A stretch of 64,000 nt of DNA, from contig NZ_LT607409.1 of NCBI RefSeq assembly GCF_900091505.1, positions 4,960,001 to 5,024,000 on the forward strand, in the 5' to 3' direction. The stretch comes from Micromonospora chokoriensis. Its GTDB lineage: Bacteria > Actinomycetota > Actinomycetes > Mycobacteriales > Micromonosporaceae. Positions 7,115 through 56,560 of this stretch are shown here, piece by piece (positions within the stretch are counted from its first letter, which is position 1; the number at the start of each line of letters is the position of its first letter). Below the pieces are notes generated by a model. It did no database searches. It saw only the letters and a list, made by a program, of their open reading frames with translations, and had not been told where the DNA came from. Made by a program: the position numbers and the translations under genes.

Positions 7115-8620
7115 CTACCCGTCGACGGTCGGGTCCGGTACGCGGACGGTGAAGACGGTGCGCCCCGGGCGGCTGTCGACACCCACGGTCCCCCGGTGGG
7201 CCTCCACCACGGCCGCCACGATCGCCAGGCCGAGGCCGGTGCTGCCGTGCGCCCGGGAGCGGGAGCTGTCGCCGCGCGCGAACCGCTCGAACACCTCCGG
7301 TTGCAGCTCCGCCGGCACCCCGGGCCCGTCGTCGGCGACGGTGAGCACGGCGTTGGCCCCCTCGACGGCCAGTGTGGTGGTCACCGTGCTGCCCGGCGGC
7401 GTGTGCACCCGCGCGTTGGCCAGCAGGTTCGCGACGACCTGGTGCAGCCGGGCCGCATCGCCGGGCACCCGGATCGCCACCTCGGGCAGGCCGAGCTGCC
7501 AGCGGTGATCGGGACCGGCGACGTGCGCGTCGCTGACCGCGTCCACCACCAGAGCGGTCAGGTCGACCGGTTCGACGGCGAGGGGACGGCCGGTGTCGAG
7601 GCGGGCCAGCAGCAGCAGGTCGTCGACGAGCCTGGTCATCCGGGTGCTCTCCGACTCCACCCGGCGCAACGCGTGCGCCACGTCGGGGGGTACCTCGTCG
7701 CGACCGCGCCGGGCCACCTCGGCGTAGCCGCGGATCGCCGCCAGCGGAGTCCGCAACTCGTGGCTGGCGTCGGCGACGAACTGGCGTACCCGGGTCTCGC
7801 TGGCCTGCCGGGCGGCGAGCGCGTCGGCGACGTGGCCCAGCATCCGGTTCAACGCCGCGCCGACCTGACCGACCTCGGTGCGCGCGTCGGTGTCCGCGTC
7901 CGGGACCCGGACGGCGAGCGCCACCTCGCCCCGGTCCAGCGGCAGCTCGGTGACCCGGGTGGCGGTGGCGGCCACCCGGTGGAGCGGGCGCAGTGTGGCC
8001 CGGACGATCAGCGCGCCGGCCGCACCGGCGACCAGCAGCCCGACGGCGGCCACCGCGGCCTGCGCGGCCACCATCCACCAGACGGTCTCCTGCACCCCGG
8101 CCAGGGGAATCGCCACGACGCGTACCCGGCCGTCCCAGTACTGCCGGGCCACGGCCCGGTAGTCGCCGCGCGCCCCGAGGTCGACGGTGCGCGGTGCGGC
8201 GTCCACCGGCAGGCCCGCCAGCGCGGCGACGTCCCCGACCGGGACGGCCTGCTCGTCGGGGAACGGGTCGCCGCTGGACGGACTGTCGGTCAGGGTCCGG
8301 GCGCTGGTCACCCGCCCGTCGGTGATCACGGCGACCACCGTGCCCGACGGTGACCCGGGTGGCACGCCCGGCCCGTTGCCCGGGAACGCCGGCCGCCCCG
8401 GACGGTCACCCCGCATGGCCGTCGCGGGCGCCAGCTGGGCGTCGAGCCGCTCGATCAGGAAGTGCCGCAGCGCCACCGTGCTGAGGCCACCGATCGCCAC
8501 GCTGACCACCGCCAGCAGCGCGAGCAGGGCGAACACCAACCGGGTACGCAGGGAGCGGCCGGCCAGCCACCGCCGGGCGGCCCGCAACGGTCGGCGGTCA
8601 CTCGGCGGGTTTGAGGACAT
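7115..8620 (-). CDS. Two-component sensor histidine kinase
   Basis: 501 residues: TM1 (~26-48), extracytoplasmic loop of ~130 residues, TM2 (~180-207), HAMP, then the kinase core. The phosphorylated His287 lies in FVADASHELRTPLAA; the N box is HQVVANLLANARVHTP, G1 is VADDGPGVP, the F box FERFARGDSSRSR and G2 STGLGLAIVAAVVEAH. It overlaps the 3' end of the response regulator gene by 23 bases and is the second gene of that pair. The sensed signal cannot be told from the loop, which has no recognisable sensor domain. Confidence 0.95.
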   Translation of the reverse strand: MSSNPPSDRRPLRAARRWLAGRSLRTRLVFALLALLAVVSVAIGGLSTVALRHFLIERLDAQLAPATAMRGDRPGRPAFPGNGPGVPPGSPSGTVVAVITDGRVTSARTLTDSPSSGDPFPDEQAVPVGDVAALAGLPVDAAPRTVDLGARGDYRAVARQYWDGRVRVVAIPLAGVQETVWWMVAAQAAVAAVGLLVAGAAGALIVRATLRPLHRVAATATRVTELPLDRGEVALAVRVPDADTDARTEVGQVGAALNRMLGHVADALAARQASETRVRQFVADASHELRTPLAAIRGYAEVARRGRDEVPPDVAHALRRVESESTRMTRLVDDLLLLARLDTGRPLAVEPVDLTALVVDAVSDAHVAGPDHRWQLGLPEVAIRVPGDAARLHQVVANLLANARVHTPPGSTVTTTLAVEGANAVLTVADDGPGVPAELQPEVFERFARGDSSRSRAHGSTGLGLAIVAAVVEAHRGTVGVDSRPGRTVFTVRVPDPTVDG

Positions 8621-44801: not shown

Positions 44802-46310
44802 TCAGCGACGCTCGGACGACACGGGAGGCCGGGTGCCGGTGGGCGCGTCGGTCCCGCCGGCCCGGGAGAACCGCACACCCTCGTCGGTGAGCCTGCCGTG
44901 GCGCATCAGCAGCACGTCGCGGGGGTAGTTCTGGTGCAGCCGCCACGGCGCGTTGGAACCCTGTCTGGGTAGCGCGTCGACGGCGCGCAGCACGTAGCCG
45001 GAGCGCAGGTCGATCAGCGGCGCCCGCCCGTCGTCGGGTGGCGGGAGCGGCGTGACGACCTGCTGGCCGGTGCGGTCCAGGTGCCGCAGCAGACGGCAGA
45101 CGTACCCGGCGACCAGGTCGGCCTTGAGTGTCCACGACGCATTGGTGTAGCCGAGGGTCAGCGCGAAGTTCGGCACCCCGGAGAGCATCATGCCCTTGTA
45201 GGCGACGGTGCTGGCGAGGTCGACGTCGACACCGTCCACGCGCAGCGTCAGGCCACCGACGGCGAGCAGGTTGAGCCCGGTCGCGGTGACCACGATGTCG
45301 GCGGGCAGCACGTCGCCGGAGGTCAGCCGGACACCGTCCGCGGTGAAGGTGTCGACGGTGTCGGTGACCACCGACGCCCGGCCCTGCCGCACGGCGGTGA
45401 ACAGGTCACCGTCGGGTGCGACGCAGAGCCGTTGGTCCCACGGGTCGTAGCGGGGTGAGAAGTGCCGGTCCACGTCGTACCCGAGCGGGAGCCGACCGGT
45501 GGCGGCCCGGCGCAGCCGCCGCCGCACCAGGCCGGGCGCACGCCGGCTGAGCTGGTAGGTGAGTGTGGACAGCAGCACGTTCTTCCAGCGAACCACCCGA
45601 TACGCGACGCTCGCCGGCAGCCGGCGCCGCAACGCGTCGGCCAGCCGGTCGCGCGAGGACAACGCCATGACGTACGTGGGTGAGCGTTGCAGCATCGTCA
45701 CGTGCGCGGCCCGCTGCGCCAACGCCGGCACCAGGGTCACCGCGGTGGCGCCGCTGCCGATGACCACCACCCGCTGACCGGTGTGGTCGAGGTCGGCGGG
45801 CCAGTGCTGCGGGTGCACCAGCCGCCCGGCGTACGCGTCGACGCCGGGCAGCGGCGGGGTGTAGCCCTCGTCGTAGCGGTAGTAGCCGGTGCAGGCGAAC
45901 AGGAACGAGCAGGTCAGCACCACGGTCTCGGCGGTGTCGGCCCGCTGCGCGTACACCGTCCAGCGGGCGGTGGCGCTGTGCCACTCGGCGCGTAGCACCC
46001 GGTGCCGGAAGCGGATGTGCCGCTGCACGTCGTACTCCCGGGCGGTCTCGCGGATGTACTCCCTGATGGTCGTGCCGTCGGCGATGGCCTTGGGCGCGGT
46101 CCAGGGCTTGAACGCGTAGCCGAGGGTGAACATGTCCGAGTCCGAGCGGATGCCCGGGTAGCGGAACAGGTCCCAGGTGCCGCCGACGGCGTCGCGTGCC
46201 TCCAGCACCGCGTACGTCCTGCCCGGGCAGTCCCGGGTCAGGTGACAGGCCGCGCCGACGCCGGACAGGCCGGCACCGATGATCAGCACGTCGACGTGGT
46301 CGGAGGCCAT
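44802..46310 (-). CDS. Flavin-containing monooxygenase (Baeyer-Villiger type)
   Basis: 502 residues. VDVLIIGAGLSGVGAACHL (FAD), GGTWDLFRYPGIRSDSDMFTLG (typical of BVMO/FMO: GGTW..NRYPG and the DS region), VVVIGSGATAVTLVP (NADP) and DIVVTATGLN. The fingerprint FxGxxxHxxxWP is present in variant form as YAGRLVHPQHWP. Substrates of relatives are ketones or sulfides. ATG 46310 with GGAGGG upstream. Its stop is 21 bp before the SDR start, so the two form an operon. Confidence 0.92.
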   Translation of the reverse strand: MASDHVDVLIIGAGLSGVGAACHLTRDCPGRTYAVLEARDAVGGTWDLFRYPGIRSDSDMFTLGYAFKPWTAPKAIADGTTIREYIRETAREYDVQRHIRFRHRVLRAEWHSATARWTVYAQRADTAETVVLTCSFLFACTGYYRYDEGYTPPLPGVDAYAGRLVHPQHWPADLDHTGQRVVVIGSGATAVTLVPALAQRAAHVTMLQRSPTYVMALSSRDRLADALRRRLPASVAYRVVRWKNVLLSTLTYQLSRRAPGLVRRRLRRAATGRLPLGYDVDRHFSPRYDPWDQRLCVAPDGDLFTAVRQGRASVVTDTVDTFTADGVRLTSGDVLPADIVVTATGLNLLAVGGLTLRVDGVDVDLASTVAYKGMMLSGVPNFALTLGYTNASWTLKADLVAGYVCRLLRHLDRTGQQVVTPLPPPDDGRAPLIDLRSGYVLRAVDALPRQGSNAPWRLHQNYPRDVLLMRHGRLTDEGVRFSRAGGTDAPTGTRPPVSSERR

Positions 46311-48424: not shown

Positions 48425-49057
48425 GTGAGGGTCACGTTACGGCTACGCGCACTGGTCGCCGTCCCCGGCACCGGGCCGGTGACCCTGGACGTCCCCGCCG
48501 GCACGCTCGCCGCCCTGGTCGCCCCACCCCGGTTCGGCACCGCTGTCGCCCGGGTGCTGGTCGGCCTCGCCGCTCCGGTGACCGGTCGCATCCTGGTCGG
48601 TGACCGGGACGTCACCGCCCTGCCCCCGCCGCGCCGGCAGATCGGCTACGTGCCGGCCGGCGGCGCGCTCCTGCCCCAGCTGAACGTGCGCCGCAACATC
48701 GAGTACGGCCAGCGCAAACGCGAACGGGTGCACGAGGTGGCCGACGACTGGACGACCACTGTCGTCGACCGGCTGGAGTTGGCGCTGTCGCTGACCCTGC
48801 TGCCGCACCAGATCTCCGCCGCCCAACGGTTCCGGGTGGCCCTGGCCCGGGCGGCGGCCTGCCTGCCCGAGGTGCTCGTGGTCGACCTGCCGGCGGGTTC
48901 GGCCGGCGACAGTCGCCTCGCCGACCTGATGCCCCGGCTCTCCCCACCCGAGGCCCCCGGGGTGGCGGTGCTGGTCTGCACCGCCGACCCGGGCACCCTG
49001 GCCGAGATCCCGGTGCGGCACGAGTTGGTCACCGAGCCGAGCGAGGCGACCCGATGA
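48425..49057 (+). CDS. ABC-ATPase-like protein with all catalytic motifs lost (pseudo-ATPase)
   Basis: 210 residues with the order of a MalK-type ATPase: VTLDVPAGTLAALVAPPRFGTAVARVLVGLAAPVTGRILVGDRDVTALPP. Walker A (GxxGxGKST) is replaced by APPRFGTAV (residues 33-41), the Q-loop by IGYVPAGG (73-80), the signature LSGGQ by QISAAQ (129-134), Walker B VLVVDLP lacks the catalytic Glu and the H-loop reads VCTADP. The fold is kept although no ATPase function can remain, so a structural or regulatory role is likely. Start GTG 48425 (a TTG at 48374 is an alternative). Its stop overlaps the next gene by 4 bases (ATGA). Confidence 0.85.
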   Translation: MRVTLRLRALVAVPGTGPVTLDVPAGTLAALVAPPRFGTAVARVLVGLAAPVTGRILVGDRDVTALPPPRRQIGYVPAGGALLPQLNVRRNIEYGQRKRERVHEVADDWTTTVVDRLELALSLTLLPHQISAAQRFRVALARAAACLPEVLVVDLPAGSAGDSRLADLMPRLSPPEAPGVAVLVCTADPGTLAEIPVRHELVTEPSEATR

Positions 49058-50334
49058 GACCGACCGCCCGGACGAGCCGTCGTGCCCTGCTGCGCGCCGC
49101 CGCCGCGGGCGTCGCCGCCGTGGCCGCCGGCTGCTCCGGCGGGACCCGGTCGGTGCAGGTCGCGGTGGTCTGGAGCACCAGCGAGCTGGACCGGTTCCGC
49201 CAGGTCGTCGGCGACTACTCCGGCGGTTCGGTGCAGGTGGTCAGCGCCGGCAACGACATCGACGCGTTCCTGCGGGCCCGGCACCTCGCGGGCACCAGCC
49301 CGGACGTGGCGATCCTGCCCCGCCCCGGCCTGGTCACCGAGTACGCCCAGCGGGGTTGGCTGAGCCCGGTGCGTCCGTCCAGCGAGTACGCGGTGCCCGA
49401 CGGGCTGGGTGACCTGCTGACCGCCGACGGCCGGCGCTACGGCGTGTGGGTCAAGGCGGCGCACAAGTCGTTGGTTTGGCACCTGCCGTCGATGCTGCCC
49501 GAGCCGCCGACCGACTGGGACGGGCTGGTCGAGCGCACCCGGCGGCTCGGCGCGAACGCCCGGCGTGCCGGTGGCCCGGCGCCGTTGGCCATCGGCGCCG
49601 CGGACGGCTGGGTGCTCACCGACTGGTTCGAGAACGTGCTGGCCGACGTGGCACCCGAGAGCTACGACGCTCTCGCCCGTCCGGACGCGGACTGGCAGGG
49701 CAGGCCGGTGCGGGACGCCCTGGACCGGCTGGCCGAGCTGTGGAGCGTCGACGGCGCGTTCCTGGGCGGCGGCCGTCGTGCCCTGCTCACCCAGTACGAG
49801 GAGTCGGTGATCCAGGTGGTGTACTCCCGGCGTGCGGTGATGCTCTGCGGAGCGGACTTCACCGCCGACGTCGTCGGCCCGTTCCAGCGCGGTCCGGAAG
49901 CGCCCACCACGTTCCCGTTCCCGGGCACCCGACCCGAGGGCGGCCCGTTGATCGTCGGCGGGGACGCGGCGGTGGCGTTCGCGGGCTCCCAGGGTGGGGT
50001 GGAGCTGGTCCAGTGGCTCACCAGGGCCGATTCGTTCCGGCCCTGGCTGCGCGCCGGTGGCTACCTGTCGCCCAACACCAACGTGCCGATCAGCAGCTAC
50101 GCCGACGAGGTCGGTCGGAAGCTCGCCCAGGAGATGCAGGCGCCCGGCACGCTGCGCTTCGACCTCTCCGACCAGTTGCCGGGCGCGTTCACCGGCTCGG
50201 ACGGCGTCGGCATCTGGCGCATCATGCAGGGCTTCTTCGCCGACGTCACCGACGGTGTCGGCGCAGGCGAGGCGATCCGCCGCGCCACCGGTCAGCTCGC
50301 CCTGGCGGCCCGCAACGCGGGCGGCGGCCGATGA
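49054..50334 (+). CDS. Extracellular solute-binding lipoprotein (ABC type, sugar-like)
   Basis: 426 residues. An Arg-Arg-containing signal (TSRRALLRAAAAGVAAVAAGCSGG) ends in a lipobox with Cys27, so it is a lipoprotein and perhaps Tat-exported. The mature part has VQVAVVWSTSELDRFRQVVGDYSG, the PPTDWDGLVERTRRL region and IVGGDAAVAFAGSQGGVELVQWL, as in family 1 extracellular binding proteins. The ligand is not known. It overlaps the pseudo-ATPase by 4 bases and the permease gene by 4 bases (ATGA), so the three are translated together. Confidence 0.92.
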   Translation: MRPTARTSRRALLRAAAAGVAAVAAGCSGGTRSVQVAVVWSTSELDRFRQVVGDYSGGSVQVVSAGNDIDAFLRARHLAGTSPDVAILPRPGLVTEYAQRGWLSPVRPSSEYAVPDGLGDLLTADGRRYGVWVKAAHKSLVWHLPSMLPEPPTDWDGLVERTRRLGANARRAGGPAPLAIGAADGWVLTDWFENVLADVAPESYDALARPDADWQGRPVRDALDRLAELWSVDGAFLGGGRRALLTQYEESVIQVVYSRRAVMLCGADFTADVVGPFQRGPEAPTTFPFPGTRPEGGPLIVGGDAAVAFAGSQGGVELVQWLTRADSFRPWLRAGGYLSPNTNVPISSYADEVGRKLAQEMQAPGTLRFDLSDQLPGAFTGSDGVGIWRIMQGFFADVTDGVGAGEAIRRATGQLALAARNAGGGR

Positions 50335-52097
50335 GCCAGCCACGGGTCCTCGGCGAGCTGGCCGTACTCGACGACGTCGGGCCGCCCCGACGGGGGCGTG
50401 CCTATCCGGCGGCGGGTGCGACCTCGGCGCTGTTGCTGCCGGCCGCCGTGCTGCTCGGTGGGCTGGTGCTGTGGCCGGTGCTGCGGACCATGCACGCCAG
50501 CGTCACCACCGACGGCCGCTGGGTCGGCGCGGAGCACTTCCGGACGGCGCTCGCCGCCCCGGGCACGGGCGCGGTGGTCGGCCGGACGGTGCTGTGGGCA
50601 CTGCTGGTGCCGGCGGTGGTGACCGCGCTGGGCTACCTGCTCGCCGCCGCGTCCCGCCGCTCCGAGGAGGGCGGCCTGATCCGGTTGATCCTCCTGGTGC
50701 CGGTGGCGTTGCCGCTGGTCGTCACGGGGGTCACCTTCCGGTTGATGTACGACCCCGACCCGAGCCGAGGGTTGGCCACCCTGGTCGCCGCCCGCCTGAC
50801 CGGCCGCTCGGCCGAGGACGCGCCGCAGTTGCTCGGGCCGGGGCTGGTCACCGTGGCGTTGATGTCGGCGTTCGTCTGGGCCTGGGTGGGCCTGGCCGTG
50901 CTGGTGTTCCGATCCGCGCTGGACACGGTGCCGCCGAGCCTCGCCGACGCGGTCCGCGCCTACGGCGGGCGGCGTCGGCACGTCCTGTGGGACGCCCAGT
51001 GGCGGCCCCTGCTGCTGCGTACCACGGCTGTGGTCTTCGCGTTGGTGGCGGTCGGCACCAGCCGCACGTTCGACCTGATCCTGGTGATGACCCCCGGCTC
51101 GGTCCGGGACGAGGCGTCGGTGCTCGCGCTGCGGATCTGGCAGACCTCGGGGGGCACCACCACCGGCGACGGCGCCGCGCTCGGCGTGGTGTGGCTGGTG
51201 GCGGTCGTCGGCGGGATCATGGTGGCCGCGCTCTTCGTCCGACAGGCCTGGCCGCCGCCGCGCGCCGAGGCGGCCCCGCCGCCGGGCCCGGTCGCCCCGC
51301 CCCGGCGGGTCATCCGGCTGATCGCGGTCGGCGCGGCGGTGGCGTGGCTGGTGCCGCTCGTGGTGCTGGTCGCCACCTCGGCACACGGCAGGGTGGACGC
51401 CGCGGCGCGTGGTTGGTGGTCGACGGCGCCCGACGGCGAGTCCTACCGGAATGTGGTCACCGGCACCGAGTTGTGGCGCACGTTGGGCTTCACGTTGCTC
51501 CTGGCCACCGCGGTGACCGCCACGGTGCTGGTGGTCGCGCTGCTGGCCGCGTACCCGCTGGCCTGGTTGACCGGGCCGGCCGCGCAGGCCACCGGGCTGC
51601 TGCTGCTGGCCGCCAGCGTCGTGCCGATCCAGGTCATCGCCGGCCCGGTCAACGAGGTGCTCGGCCTGGTGCTGTCCTCCGGCACCTCCCAGGGCCTGGC
51701 CCTGGTGCACACCGCGTTGGGTGTGCCGTTTGCCGTGCTGGTGCTGCGCAACGCGTTCGCCGACCTGCCCGTCGAGCAGGTGCGCGACGCCCGACTGGGC
51801 GGCCGTCGGTGGTGGCACACCATGCGACGGCTGGCCCGGCACAACCTGTCGGCGGTGGTGGCGGTGTCCGTGCTGGAGTTCGTCCAGGTCTGGAACGACC
51901 TGGTGGTGGGTCGGCTGTTCAGCGGGTCGGGGGCGTCGCCGCTCGGGCCGTTCCTGGCCGAGCAGACGCGCAGCTTCGTGAGCAACAGCGGCGCGCTGGC
52001 CGCCAGCTCGGTGCTCGCCTCGGTGCTGCCGGTGGTGCTGGTGGTGGTGTCGCGGCGGCACCTGGTCGCCGGGCTCGTCTCCGGGGGTGTGCGCTGA
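50331..52097 (+). CDS. ABC permease, two halves fused in one polypeptide
   Basis: 588 residues. The N-terminal half (~30-310) has six helices with SRRSEEGGLIRLILLVPVALPLVVTGVTF and a coupling segment SLADAVRAYGGRRRHVLWDAQWRP; the C-terminal half (~330-588) repeats the fold with RNAFADLPVEQVRDARLGGRRWWHTMRRLARHNL. The two resemble MalF and MalG-type binding-protein-dependent permeases, joined by a Pro-rich linker (PPPRAEAAPPPGPVAPP). EAA-loop motifs are diverged (A..AYGG, AR.GG). Upstream solute-binding protein and pseudo-ATPase are overlapping, so the ATPase for this pump is missing or elsewhere. Confidence 0.9.
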   Translation: MSQPRVLGELAVLDDVGPPRRGRAYPAAGATSALLLPAAVLLGGLVLWPVLRTMHASVTTDGRWVGAEHFRTALAAPGTGAVVGRTVLWALLVPAVVTALGYLLAAASRRSEEGGLIRLILLVPVALPLVVTGVTFRLMYDPDPSRGLATLVAARLTGRSAEDAPQLLGPGLVTVALMSAFVWAWVGLAVLVFRSALDTVPPSLADAVRAYGGRRRHVLWDAQWRPLLLRTTAVVFALVAVGTSRTFDLILVMTPGSVRDEASVLALRIWQTSGGTTTGDGAALGVVWLVAVVGGIMVAALFVRQAWPPPRAEAAPPPGPVAPPRRVIRLIAVGAAVAWLVPLVVLVATSAHGRVDAAARGWWSTAPDGESYRNVVTGTELWRTLGFTLLLATAVTATVLVVALLAAYPLAWLTGPAAQATGLLLLAASVVPIQVIAGPVNEVLGLVLSSGTSQGLALVHTALGVPFAVLVLRNAFADLPVEQVRDARLGGRRWWHTMRRLARHNLSAVVAVSVLEFVQVWNDLVVGRLFSGSGASPLGPFLAEQTRSFVSNSGALAASSVLASVLPVVLVVVSRRHLVAGLVSGGVR

Positions 52098-54478
52098 CCA
52101 GGCCGGGCGGTGGCCGCCGCAGCCCGCGCTGGCCGGCGCTGATCGCGATCGGCGGGGTGGTCAGCGGCGTCCTCGCCAACGTGGTCAGCAACCTCGCCAG
52201 CAACCTGCTCTCCGAGTTGGCGGCCAGCGTGCTCGGCCCGACGAGCATCGCGCTCGCCGTCGGCGGCATCGTGGGCTTCGTCGTGTACGAGGTCCGTCGC
52301 CGCCGGGCGGAACGGGACGTCGACCCGGAACCGACGGACGTGCTCACCACCCCGGCCGCCGGCGCCCCGAACCTGCCCTACACGGCCGAGTTCACCGGTC
52401 GCGGCGAGCACGTCGAGGCGGTCGTCGCGCTGCTCTCCCGGGAACACGCGGTGGCGGTGTTGGGCCGCCGGGCGGTGGGCACCTCGGCGTGCGCCGTCGC
52501 GGCCGCGAACCTGTGCCGGGACGACTTCCCGGACGGGCAGTACTACCTCGACCTGCGCCGACACGGCCGACCCCGCTCGGCCCAACAGGTGCTCACCGCG
52601 CTGGCCCGGATCTTGGGCACCGCCCCGCCGACCTCCGGCCGACCGGACGCGCTCGTCGCCGCCGCCGACGCGGTGCGCGGCCAGCTCGACGGCCGCCGGA
52701 TCCTGCTGGTGCTGGACAACGTCGACCGGCCCGACCAGGTCCGGCCCCTCCTGCCGCCCACCGCGCGCACCTGCCGGCTGCTGCTCGCCGGCGGCCCGGC
52801 GCTGACGGGGCTCAAGGGCGTGGTCGCACACTGGATCGCCGAGCCGGGCACCTCCGAGGCGGTCGAGTTGTTCGCCACCGCGGGCGGGGCCGCACCCGCC
52901 GCCCGGGTCCGCCGTGCCGATCCGCGCACCGACCCGGCGGTACGCGACATCGTCGACCTGTGCGGCCGACAGCCCCGCACCGTCCGCGCGCTCGGTTATC
53001 GCACCGCGCAGCACGGCTGGCGACATGCCGACGTGCTGGACGCGCTGCGCCGCGCGGTGCAGACGCCACCACACCAGCGGCTCGCCGTGTCACCGGCCGC
53101 GCGTCTGATCACCGAACGGGACACCGCGTACCGGTCGTTGAGCCGCGAGGCGCGACGGTTGTACCGGGTGATGTCACTGATCCCCGCCCCGGTGGACCGG
53201 CCCACCATCGCCGCGCTGGCCGGCCGGCACCCCGAGCGGGTGACCGCGCTGCTCGACCAGTTGGCCGCCGGGGCGTTCGTGGTCGGCGCGCCCGGCGACC
53301 GGTACGAGATCCGCCCGCTGCTCGCCGACAGCGCCCGTCTGCACCTGCGCGACGCCGATCCGGTCCGGGCCCGGGTCGCCGCGCAGGCCCGGTTGACCCG
53401 GCACCTGGCCCGCCGGGCCGAGCGGCACGCCGCCAACCTGGCGGTGCTCGGCGCACCACCGGACCGGGAGTGGTCGCTGCCGCTGGACGACGACCCGTAC
53501 GGCTGGTTCGACCTGCACCAGGAGTTGCTGCTGGCGGTGGTGCGGGTGCCGTCCGGCGCGGCCGAGACACTGCCCCGACGGGTCCGCCGGTGGTGGTTCC
53601 GGCTGGCCGTGGCGCTCTGCGGGTGGCTGGCGTACGCCGAGCGGCTCGACGAGTGGGAGCAGGTCTGCCGCACCGTGCTGGCCACCCCGACCGCCGACGA
53701 CCGACCGGAGATCGCCGGGTGGGCGCACAACGAACTGGGTGTGCTGCGTCGACGTCGGCACGATCCGCACGGGGCGGCAGCCGCGCTCACCCTCGCGGTG
53801 AACGAGCGCGGACGCGGGGGCACCGCCCAGGCCCGGATGAACCTCGGCCTGGCCCTGCTGGATCTGGGGCAGCTGGACGACGCGGTGGAGCACCTGGAGA
53901 TGTCCCGGAGGCACCGCTCCGGGGCGGACCGGGCCGGGCACGCCCTCACCGACCTGGGTCTCGGCGCGGCGCAGCTCGCCCGGGGTGAGTTGGACAGCGC
54001 ACACCACCACCTGGTGCGGGCGGCGAACACCTTCCGGTCGGTGGGCGACGCCCGGGGGTACGCGGCGGCGTTGACCAACCTGGTGCTGGTGCACGCGGGT
54101 CTCGGCGAACACCTGGACGCCGCGCAGGCGTGGCGGGCGGCGCTGCGCGAGTACGAGTCGGTCAACGACCCGACGAGTCGGGCGACGGCCCTGCTCAACG
54201 CCGGGGCGACGCTGCTGACCAGCACGCCGGGGCAGGCGCGGGTGGCGTACGACCTGCTGGCCGAGAGCCGACGGCTGCGCGAGGAGACGCAGCCCACGGC
54301 GGGGCTGGCACGCACCCTGCTCTACCTGGGTGACGCCTGCACGGCGCTGGGCGAGCACGCCGACGCGCGGCGGCACTGGGCGGACGCGGCGACGGTCGCC
54401 GAGGAGGTCGCCGACGGGCAGGCACTGGCCGCCGCCGACGCCCGGCTGGACAACGACGCCGCGGACCGCGTGACGTAG
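52094..54478 (+). CDS. Membrane-anchored NB-ARC/TPR-like protein with mutated P-loop
   Basis: 794 residues if it begins at CTG 52094, whose CTGA overlaps the permease stop as ATGA and GTGA do at the other junctions of this operon. GTG 52157 is the first conventional start, but would cut into the first membrane helix and lose the basic residues before it. Layout: two helices (~13-64), a STAND/NB-ARC-like ATPase with AVAVLGRRAVGTSACAVAAANL (GxxxxGK[ST] changed to GT S) and RRILLVLDNVDR (Walker B), LYRVMSLIPAPVDRPTIAALAG winged-helix-like region, then about eight TPR units (~590-790, e.g. ARMNLGLALLDLGQLDDAVEHLE). The missing Lys suggests no ATP hydrolysis. Confidence 0.82.
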   Translation: MTRPGGGRRSPRWPALIAIGGVVSGVLANVVSNLASNLLSELAASVLGPTSIALAVGGIVGFVVYEVRRRRAERDVDPEPTDVLTTPAAGAPNLPYTAEFTGRGEHVEAVVALLSREHAVAVLGRRAVGTSACAVAAANLCRDDFPDGQYYLDLRRHGRPRSAQQVLTALARILGTAPPTSGRPDALVAAADAVRGQLDGRRILLVLDNVDRPDQVRPLLPPTARTCRLLLAGGPALTGLKGVVAHWIAEPGTSEAVELFATAGGAAPAARVRRADPRTDPAVRDIVDLCGRQPRTVRALGYRTAQHGWRHADVLDALRRAVQTPPHQRLAVSPAARLITERDTAYRSLSREARRLYRVMSLIPAPVDRPTIAALAGRHPERVTALLDQLAAGAFVVGAPGDRYEIRPLLADSARLHLRDADPVRARVAAQARLTRHLARRAERHAANLAVLGAPPDREWSLPLDDDPYGWFDLHQELLLAVVRVPSGAAETLPRRVRRWWFRLAVALCGWLAYAERLDEWEQVCRTVLATPTADDRPEIAGWAHNELGVLRRRRHDPHGAAAALTLAVNERGRGGTAQARMNLGLALLDLGQLDDAVEHLEMSRRHRSGADRAGHALTDLGLGAAQLARGELDSAHHHLVRAANTFRSVGDARGYAAALTNLVLVHAGLGEHLDAAQAWRAALREYESVNDPTSRATALLNAGATLLTSTPGQARVAYDLLAESRRLREETQPTAGLARTLLYLGDACTALGEHADARRHWADAATVAEEVADGQALAAADARLDNDAADRVT

Positions 54479-54518: not shown

Positions 54519-55138
<620 letters not shown>

Positions 55139-55142
<4 letters not shown>

Positions 55143-56560
55143 CCGCCCCGACGGCCACGATCGCCGGCACGTCGACCGGCGTGCCCAGCGCGCGGCAGCT
55201 GCGCACGCGCCTGCGCAAGGCGCGCAGCCGACACCACGACCATTCGCTCAGCGACGTGCTGGGCGACGCGTACGTCATCGTCCTGTTCACGGGCATGTAC
55301 GGGTGGTTCGCGGTCAGCGCCAGCCGTGACCTGCTGGACTCCCCCACGGTGGGGCAGGCCGAGCCGGGTGTGCGTTGGTGGTTGGCGGTCGCGGCGCTGC
55401 TGGCCGGTGCCGGCCTCGCCTGGCGGGGTCTGCGCGCGCTCGGCCCGCTGCTGGTCACCCCGGCGACGCAGAGCTGGGCGACCAGCGCGCCGGTGGACCG
55501 GCGGGCGTGGCTGGCGCCGCGCTTCGCCCTCCTGCTGGTGGGCGCGGCGGCCGGCACCGCGACGCTCGGGGCGGCCGTGGCGGCGCTCGGCGGTGTCAGC
55601 GACCCGGGTGCCCTGGGCTGGGCGGCGGCGGCCGGCGCGGGGTGGGGCGCGGCAGCGCTGGCGCTCAGCGTCGTCGCCCAGAGCAGCCGGGCCGGTCGAC
55701 GGTGGCCGATGCTGATCGGCGCGGTCCCGCTGGTCGCGGCCGCCGTGATCACCGGCGCGGTGGTGTTCGTCGGGGGCCTGGGCGACGCGTTGCCCCGACC
55801 GGCGGCGACGCCCACCATCGCGCTGTTCGCCGTGGCGGTGCCGTTCGTGGGCGTGGGCACGGTCCTCGCGGTACGCGCGCTGCCCCGCGTCGACCGGGCC
55901 ACGCTGACCACCGGCGCCCAGTTCGCCAACGCCGCCTCCACGGCCATGATCCTGCTGGACCCGAGTCTCCTCGCCGGGCTGGTGGAGAGCCGGCGGTGGC
56001 GTCGGGTCGGCAAGGTCCGCAGCAGCCGGTTCCGGCCCGGTCCGGGCTGGTGGGCGCTGCTCCAGGCCGACGTCCGACGCCTGCGCCGTCACCCGAGCGC
56101 GGTGCTGATCTGGGCGGCGCTGATCGGGGTGCAGTATGCTGCCGCGCTCGCCATGCCCGGGTTGGCCGGGGCCGCTCAGGTGGTGTTCGCGTACCTCGCC
56201 GTCGACCGGCTGACCGGTGGTCTGCGGTCGATCAGCCGCTCACCCGGGCTGCGTCGGGCGCTCGGGGGCAGCGACAACCTGCTGCGCGGCATCCACGTGG
56301 TGGTGCCGGCCGTCGGCGCGGCTCTGTGGTGGTTGCTGACAGTGCCGACCGTCGATCCGGGGCCGGCGTGGCTCGCGCCGACGCTGGCGCTCGGGGTGGT
56401 GGCCGCCGCGTTCCGGGCCGGCACCCGCCCACCGATCGACTACGGCGGCGCGACTGTCAACACCCCGTTCGGGATGGTCCCTGTCGACCTGCTGCGCCAG
56501 GGCTCACGGGGGCCGGCGCTGCTCGCCGTGCTCGTCCTGGTCCAGCTGTTCCTGGGCTGA
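55139..56560 (+). CDS. DUF6297 multi-pass membrane protein, ABC permease-like
   Basis: 473 residues with about twelve helices. The N-terminal part (LSDVLGDAYVIVLFTGMYGWFAVSASRDLL) and the last third (LLQADVRRLRRHPSAVLIWAALIGVQYAAALAMPGLAGAAQVVFAYLAVDRLTGGLRSISRSPGLRRALGG) fit the DUF6297 family, which resembles the permease of ABC-2 export systems. It pairs with the intact ATPase, with overlapping stop/start. Export substrate unknown. The preceding operon may or may not be transcribed with it (gap 40 bp after 54478). Confidence 0.9.

Follow-up and report, generated by a model that had tools for sequence, protein, structure and literature searches.

The closest described relatives of the locus analysed here are the CUT1 type-I importers, i.e. 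MalEFGK2 and systems with UgpC/MalK-type ATPases and NgcE- or GlcS-like binding proteins. The locus is like them in the gene order of its live sisters, in the fold of its ATPase-like protein and in its permease and binding-protein families, but it differs in having a dead ATPase with no C-terminal domain, fused permeases that have lost both coupling motifs, and an additional STAND/TPR gene. In heterodimeric ABC exporters one of the two halves commonly has a degenerate nucleotide site, and in Streptomyces MsiK is an ATPase shared between importers. Sugar importers often share one borrowed ATPase (PMC7658222), and those served by multitask ATPases (MsmX, MsmK and MsiK) resemble the locus in that no working ATPase is encoded next to the importer genes. 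In Escherichia coli MalT is tethered to the membrane by the MalK of the idle maltose transporter, and is freed on transport of sugar (PMC10427625); PH0952 is a STAND protein with a TPR sensor that is related to MalT (PMC6468293). The MalFGK2-MalT system offers a second likeness, in that a MalFGK-type complex is paired at the membrane with a STAND protein whose sensor is TPR-like (PMC10427625, PMC6468293). The differences are that MalFGK2 pumps and MalK hydrolyses ATP, while MalT is soluble, with an intact P-loop and a DNA-binding domain.

The window, i.e. the whole stretch of 64,000 nt that was analysed, comes from Micromonospora chokoriensis, and the four-gene block that it contains lies on a complete chromosome of 6.9 Mb. 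The block occupies positions 48425-54478 of the forward strand, and the stop codon of each gene overlaps the start of the next. P1 (48425-49057) encodes a pseudo-ATPase of 210 aa, P2 (49054-50334) a solute-binding lipoprotein of a sugar-binding family, P3 (50331-52097) a fused two-domain permease of MalF/MalG type, and P4 (52094-54478) a probable membrane-anchored STAND protein comprising an NB-ARC domain with an altered P-loop and a TPR array. The overlaps are ATGA at 49054, ATGA at 50331 and CTGA at 52094; these had been reported in the original prediction, and coordinates, frames and overlaps all proved correct. In two close relatives all four genes are jointly absent, the flanking WYL gene and ABC exporter gene being directly adjacent, and homology to the window restarts at the final codons of P4. 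This absence as a block defines the extent of the unit, which by sequence is gained or lost as a whole. Directly downstream on the same strand (54522-56560) is an intact ABC exporter pair, with Walker A GPNGSGKTT followed by a membrane protein. A functional tie to the exporter or to the WYL regulator was rejected, because these are adjacent in the closer species only and both persist in relatives that lack the block. The rplU-rpmA-obg housekeeping genes adjoin the operon in two genomes.

P1 matches Pfam ABC_tran with 47 bits. An AlphaFold2 model (pLDDT 88) has the fold of a nucleotide-binding domain, and its best Foldseek matches are domains of CysA/MalK type (CysA, PH0203 and MalK). At the former Walker A (48515-48550) P1 has LVAPPRFGTAVA, aligned where live relatives have LVGPSGCGKTTAL (GPSGCGKTT in the live sister ATPases), and further on VPAGGALLP stands against VFQSYALYP. 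The former ABC signature (48812-48826) reads ISAAQ for LSGGQ. In the Walker B region VVDLP replaces LMDEP, so that its end (48884-48889) is Asp-Leu for Asp-Glu and the catalytic Glu is lost. The H-loop is absent, as is the C-terminal domain of about 190 residues found in live relatives. The same losses run through the family. All the dead-type orthologues read have lost the Walker A Lys and the H-loop, LSGGQ has become LSxxQ or similar, and Leu or some other residue has replaced the Walker B Glu. None of them keeps the motifs expected of the ATPase of an ABC importer, namely an intact Walker A, Q-loop, signature, Walker B Glu and H-loop. The remainder of the domain is conserved, GALLPHLTVxxNIEYG most strongly, and this probably corresponds to the part of MalK that borders the cleft receiving the coupling helix of the permease (PMC7658222). 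Judged from these alignments, P1 is dead by loss of its catalytic motifs, and is conserved rather than decaying. Loss of all catalytic motifs in P1, and of the P-loop Lys in P4, had been read from the single sequence; both are borne out by alignment and conserved in orthologues.

Close orthologues of P3 occur in 67 of the 160 genomes of the genus Micromonospora. A scan of named genomes added occurrences in Actinoplanes, Amorphoplanes, Rugosimonospora, Dactylosporangium, Lentzea, Umezawaea and Nocardia, and one genome from another order of the class also carries the system. The original prediction would have failed if orthologues carried an intact Walker A or if synteny broke down. Neither is the case: the four-gene order is the same in all loci not cut by a contig end, those of Nocardia excepted, and none of about 65 four-gene loci (a count in which some species or genomes figure twice, being present in two collections) has an intact Walker A. 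Median dN/dS over 14 relatives is 0.20 for P1, 0.34 for P2, 0.17 for P3 and 0.22 for P4, values indicating purifying selection on each of the four genes. Motifs have been lost in two ATPase-like proteins, and the P4 gene has an apparent frame-shift in one relative (L081, about 5867), while in another P4 is damaged or has diverged strongly (L117, 8785-10982), with P1-P3 intact in both. One might take this as a sign that the genes are decaying relics, yet identical losses are fixed across several families and one further order, frames are intact and dN/dS is well below 1, so that this explanation can be given almost no weight; decay of a single copy is likewise rejected by the conservation in orthologues and by dN/dS. 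Spread on plasmids was rejected, there being no match among 72,556 plasmids, and so was a role in defence, for which PADLOC returned a weak TPR match only.

Live sisters were reached by a search with a profile of the binding protein. In the nearest of these the genes run ATPase, binding protein, permease 1, permease 2, the permeases being separate, and the ATPase is about 400 aa long with GPSGCGKT and LSGGQ intact. P3 joins the two permease halves, Pfam BPD_transp_1 matching two stretches of it, so that the block does contain the two such domains and the solute-binding protein that characterize type-I importers. Start codons in automatic gene calls are approximate, and in fourteen loci they had been placed too far upstream; as a single open frame spans both halves there, these loci are counted as fused. 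The fused permease of one Rugosimonospora locus (L137, about 7882-8150) has a longer linker between the halves than the others, with 655 aa in total.

Comparison with the split permeases reveals that both coupling helices of P3 are degenerate. The first half has DAVRAYG for EAARxDG (50946-50966), and in the second the EAARMDG region is replaced by QVRDARLG (51777-51800). The EAA motif (EAARxDG) is present in both permeases of all 23 split loci, of which 12 have a live ATPase encoded next to them and 11 have none. Not one of about 95 fused loci, again with some species or genomes counted twice, has it in either half. It has been lost furthest in the Nocardia-type permeases. The original prediction spoke of a complete importer, and in this respect it has to be amended, since the coupling motifs are degenerate as well as the ATPase.

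These data bear directly on whether the system might still use ATP for import, drawing in trans on a shared ATPase of MsiK type, with P1 and P4 as regulators. The genome has intact MalK/MsiK-like ATPases, 57% identical to that of the live sister, the ligand site of P2 is conserved, and multitask ATPases, MsiK in Streptomyces among them, do serve importers that have none of their own (PMC7658222). The 11 split loci that have no ATPase gene next to them are presumably driven in this way, but they keep both EAA motifs, which every fused locus has lost. Two of them (L202 and L204) are in other genomes of the same genus (G005 and G096), where a split copy of the importer family has both EAA motifs intact and no ATPase gene; in G005 this copy exists alongside the dead, fused unit. 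Moreover, the docking site would be taken by P1 itself. That the motor and its docking motif have been lost together argues against a borrowed motor, and we consider a powered importer unlikely.

In a maximum-likelihood tree of the binding proteins all fused/dead loci form one clade with support of 100/100 and the live importers fall outside it; the root of this tree is uncertain because the outgroup branches are long, and one unrelated binding protein on a long branch inside the dead clade was disregarded. The Nocardia-type loci nest within the fused/dead clade. They have kept P2, P3 and the transmembrane TPR protein, the latter with no NB-ARC domain, and the ATPase gene is absent. In four Nocardia-type genomes the best ATPase matches outside the locus are all intact, ordinary ATPases, and there is no relocated dead ATPase among them. 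Near six of the Nocardia-type loci (L142, L145, L149, L152, L154 and L157) there is a flavin monooxygenase gene, whose product is about 60-64% identical to that encoded at 44802-46310 of the window, together with an SDR gene. A tie to this pair was rejected as background, since the monooxygenase is found in 146 of the 160 genus genomes regardless of the block; being near-universal in Micromonospora, it may be co-located with the Nocardia-type loci by chance.

Three things together indicate that the system does not pump: the ATPase is dead across deeply diverged lineages, both coupling helices are gone, and one lineage has lost the ATPase gene of the locus. These sequence comparisons lend good support to the view that the block, by itself, does not pump, and to this extent the original proposal of sensing rather than pumping has been strengthened; its other half, sensing with a TPR output, we infer.

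P2 belongs to Pfam SBP_bac_8, and its profile matches in the PDB are oligosaccharide-binding proteins. It has a Tat-type twin Arg and a lipobox Cys; R9, R10, C27 and the pocket motifs are invariant among orthologues. The ligand-site motifs KAAxKSxxW and GAADGWxLTDWFENV are common to dead-type P2 and the binding proteins of live importers. The ligand is most likely an oligosaccharide or glycan fragment similar to that of the live relatives.

P4 matches Pfam TPR_12, and has weak full-length NCBIfam matches to STAND proteins of AfsR/HaaT type: 116 bits over 14-784 for NF041717 (HaaT), where the curated cut-off is 1125 bits, and 103 bits for AfsR, where it is 1430 bits. Its best sequence match in the PDB is the solved AfsR structure 8k60. 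The AlphaFold2 model (pLDDT 84) is closest by Foldseek to the STAND-TPR protein PH0952 (6mfv), with matches also to Apaf-1 and NLRs, so that model and sequence both point to the NB-ARC, winged-helix and TPR architecture of STAND ATPases. The altered P-loop (52463-52486) reads GRRAVGTS, with Lys changed to Thr. Wherever the NB-ARC domain is present in orthologues GTS replaces GK[ST], except for GSS in one genome and one frame-shifted copy, whereas all 29 AfsR/HaaT-like proteins from relatives that were compared with it have GK[ST]. Walker B (LLVLDNV) is mostly retained. P4 also differs from AfsR and HaaT in that we found neither a SARP domain in it nor RiPP genes adjoining it, and a role in RiPP maturation via HaaT was rejected on the latter ground and on the low score. 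No DNA-binding or enzymatic output domain was recognised in searches of Pfam and NCBIfam. Hydropathy indicates N-terminal hydrophobic segments (52139-52288) that are a probable membrane anchor, modelled as helices 17-35 and 50-74 in a part of low confidence; basic residues follow them, so the NB-ARC and TPR parts are probably cytosolic. The start of P4 is uncertain, being CTG (52094) here and in a few close relatives, whereas the others have GTG or ATG at that position. In one genome an NB-ARC/TPR protein with an intact P-loop (GAPGAGKT; L197, 2413-4773) is encoded convergently to a live sister importer.

All fused loci not cut by a contig end have the transmembrane TPR protein, and not all have the ATPase. 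A constant core of this protein and the permease would suit an envelope scaffold, in which P2 grips a glycan outside, P3 provides an anchor and the TPR protein serves inside as an assembly platform for wall or secretion machinery, with no signalling; TPR arrays commonly act as scaffolds, and the operon is beside rplU-rpmA-obg in the two genomes mentioned above. We nevertheless regard a scaffold as rather unlikely, as the STAND architecture with Walker B retained suggests descent from a switch, P2 retains the small-ligand pocket of an importer, and presence in only 67 of 160 genus genomes is not what a core structural role would lead one to expect. P3 might instead be an ATP-independent channel or facilitator that is fed by P2 and gated by P1 and P4. 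A permease with no motor could in principle leak substrate, and P3 is the most constrained of the four proteins (dN/dS 0.17), but a channel leaves no role for the STAND/TPR protein found in all loci. We know of no precedent for a type-I importer fold acting in this way, and think it very unlikely.

We prefer, with a probability of about 0.58, an importer-derived receptor that does not pump and would relay ligand occupancy to a membrane STAND/TPR partner, in a manner analogous to MalFGK2-MalT. The inference of sensing with a TPR output gains from the constancy of the TPR protein rather than the ATPase, and from the MalFGK2-MalT precedent (PMC10427625, PMC6468293). A type-I (CUT1-like) sugar importer would have become, on a single occasion in the history of the actinobacteria, a receptor-like membrane complex. 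The lipoprotein P2 would still bind ligand outside the cell, and when loaded would dock onto P3, altering its shape. At the inner face this change could be relayed to P1, retained as a structural wedge, and to membrane-anchored P4, which would release or recruit a partner via its TPR array, much as MalFGK2 holds and releases MalT but with no hydrolysis of ATP. In the simplest reading the ligand-driven conformational change would have been kept and transport given up. Complex formation, ligand class, direction of the signal and output are the predicted parts of this proposal, and neither partner, ligand nor regulon emerged from the sequence and model analysis. What counts against a receptor, besides the lack of a recognised output domain in P4 and the intact MalK-like ATPases of the genome, is that P1 ends before the C-terminal domain by which MalK contacts MalT, so the contacts must differ from those of MalK and MalT.

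The original prediction knew of no description of such a locus. Literature searches on inactive ABC importers and pseudo-ATPases, in which subscription journals were thinly covered, likewise found nothing relevant. To our knowledge an importer family whose live sisters share its gene order, but in which the sole ATPase is wholly dead and the matching coupling helices are lost, is undescribed. A broader proposal, to which we give somewhat less than even odds, is that these loci are a widespread actinobacterial class of ATP-free receptor made from a whole ABC importer, in which the pseudo-ATPase and the pseudo-STAND switch were inactivated ancestrally and discarded in one lineage, and the permease transduces an extracellular glycan signal to a cytosolic TPR platform.

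The natural series from live to dead to deleted ATPase allows one to ask what an importer does when it has no motor, and the family links importers with proteins of STAND/NLR type, as MalK-MalT does. It is also a warning for annotation, in that the ABC transporter genes here should not be taken to mean nutrient uptake. Many soil actinobacteria keep a four-gene relative of a sugar importer that has very probably given up pumping sugar, and that may sense it instead.
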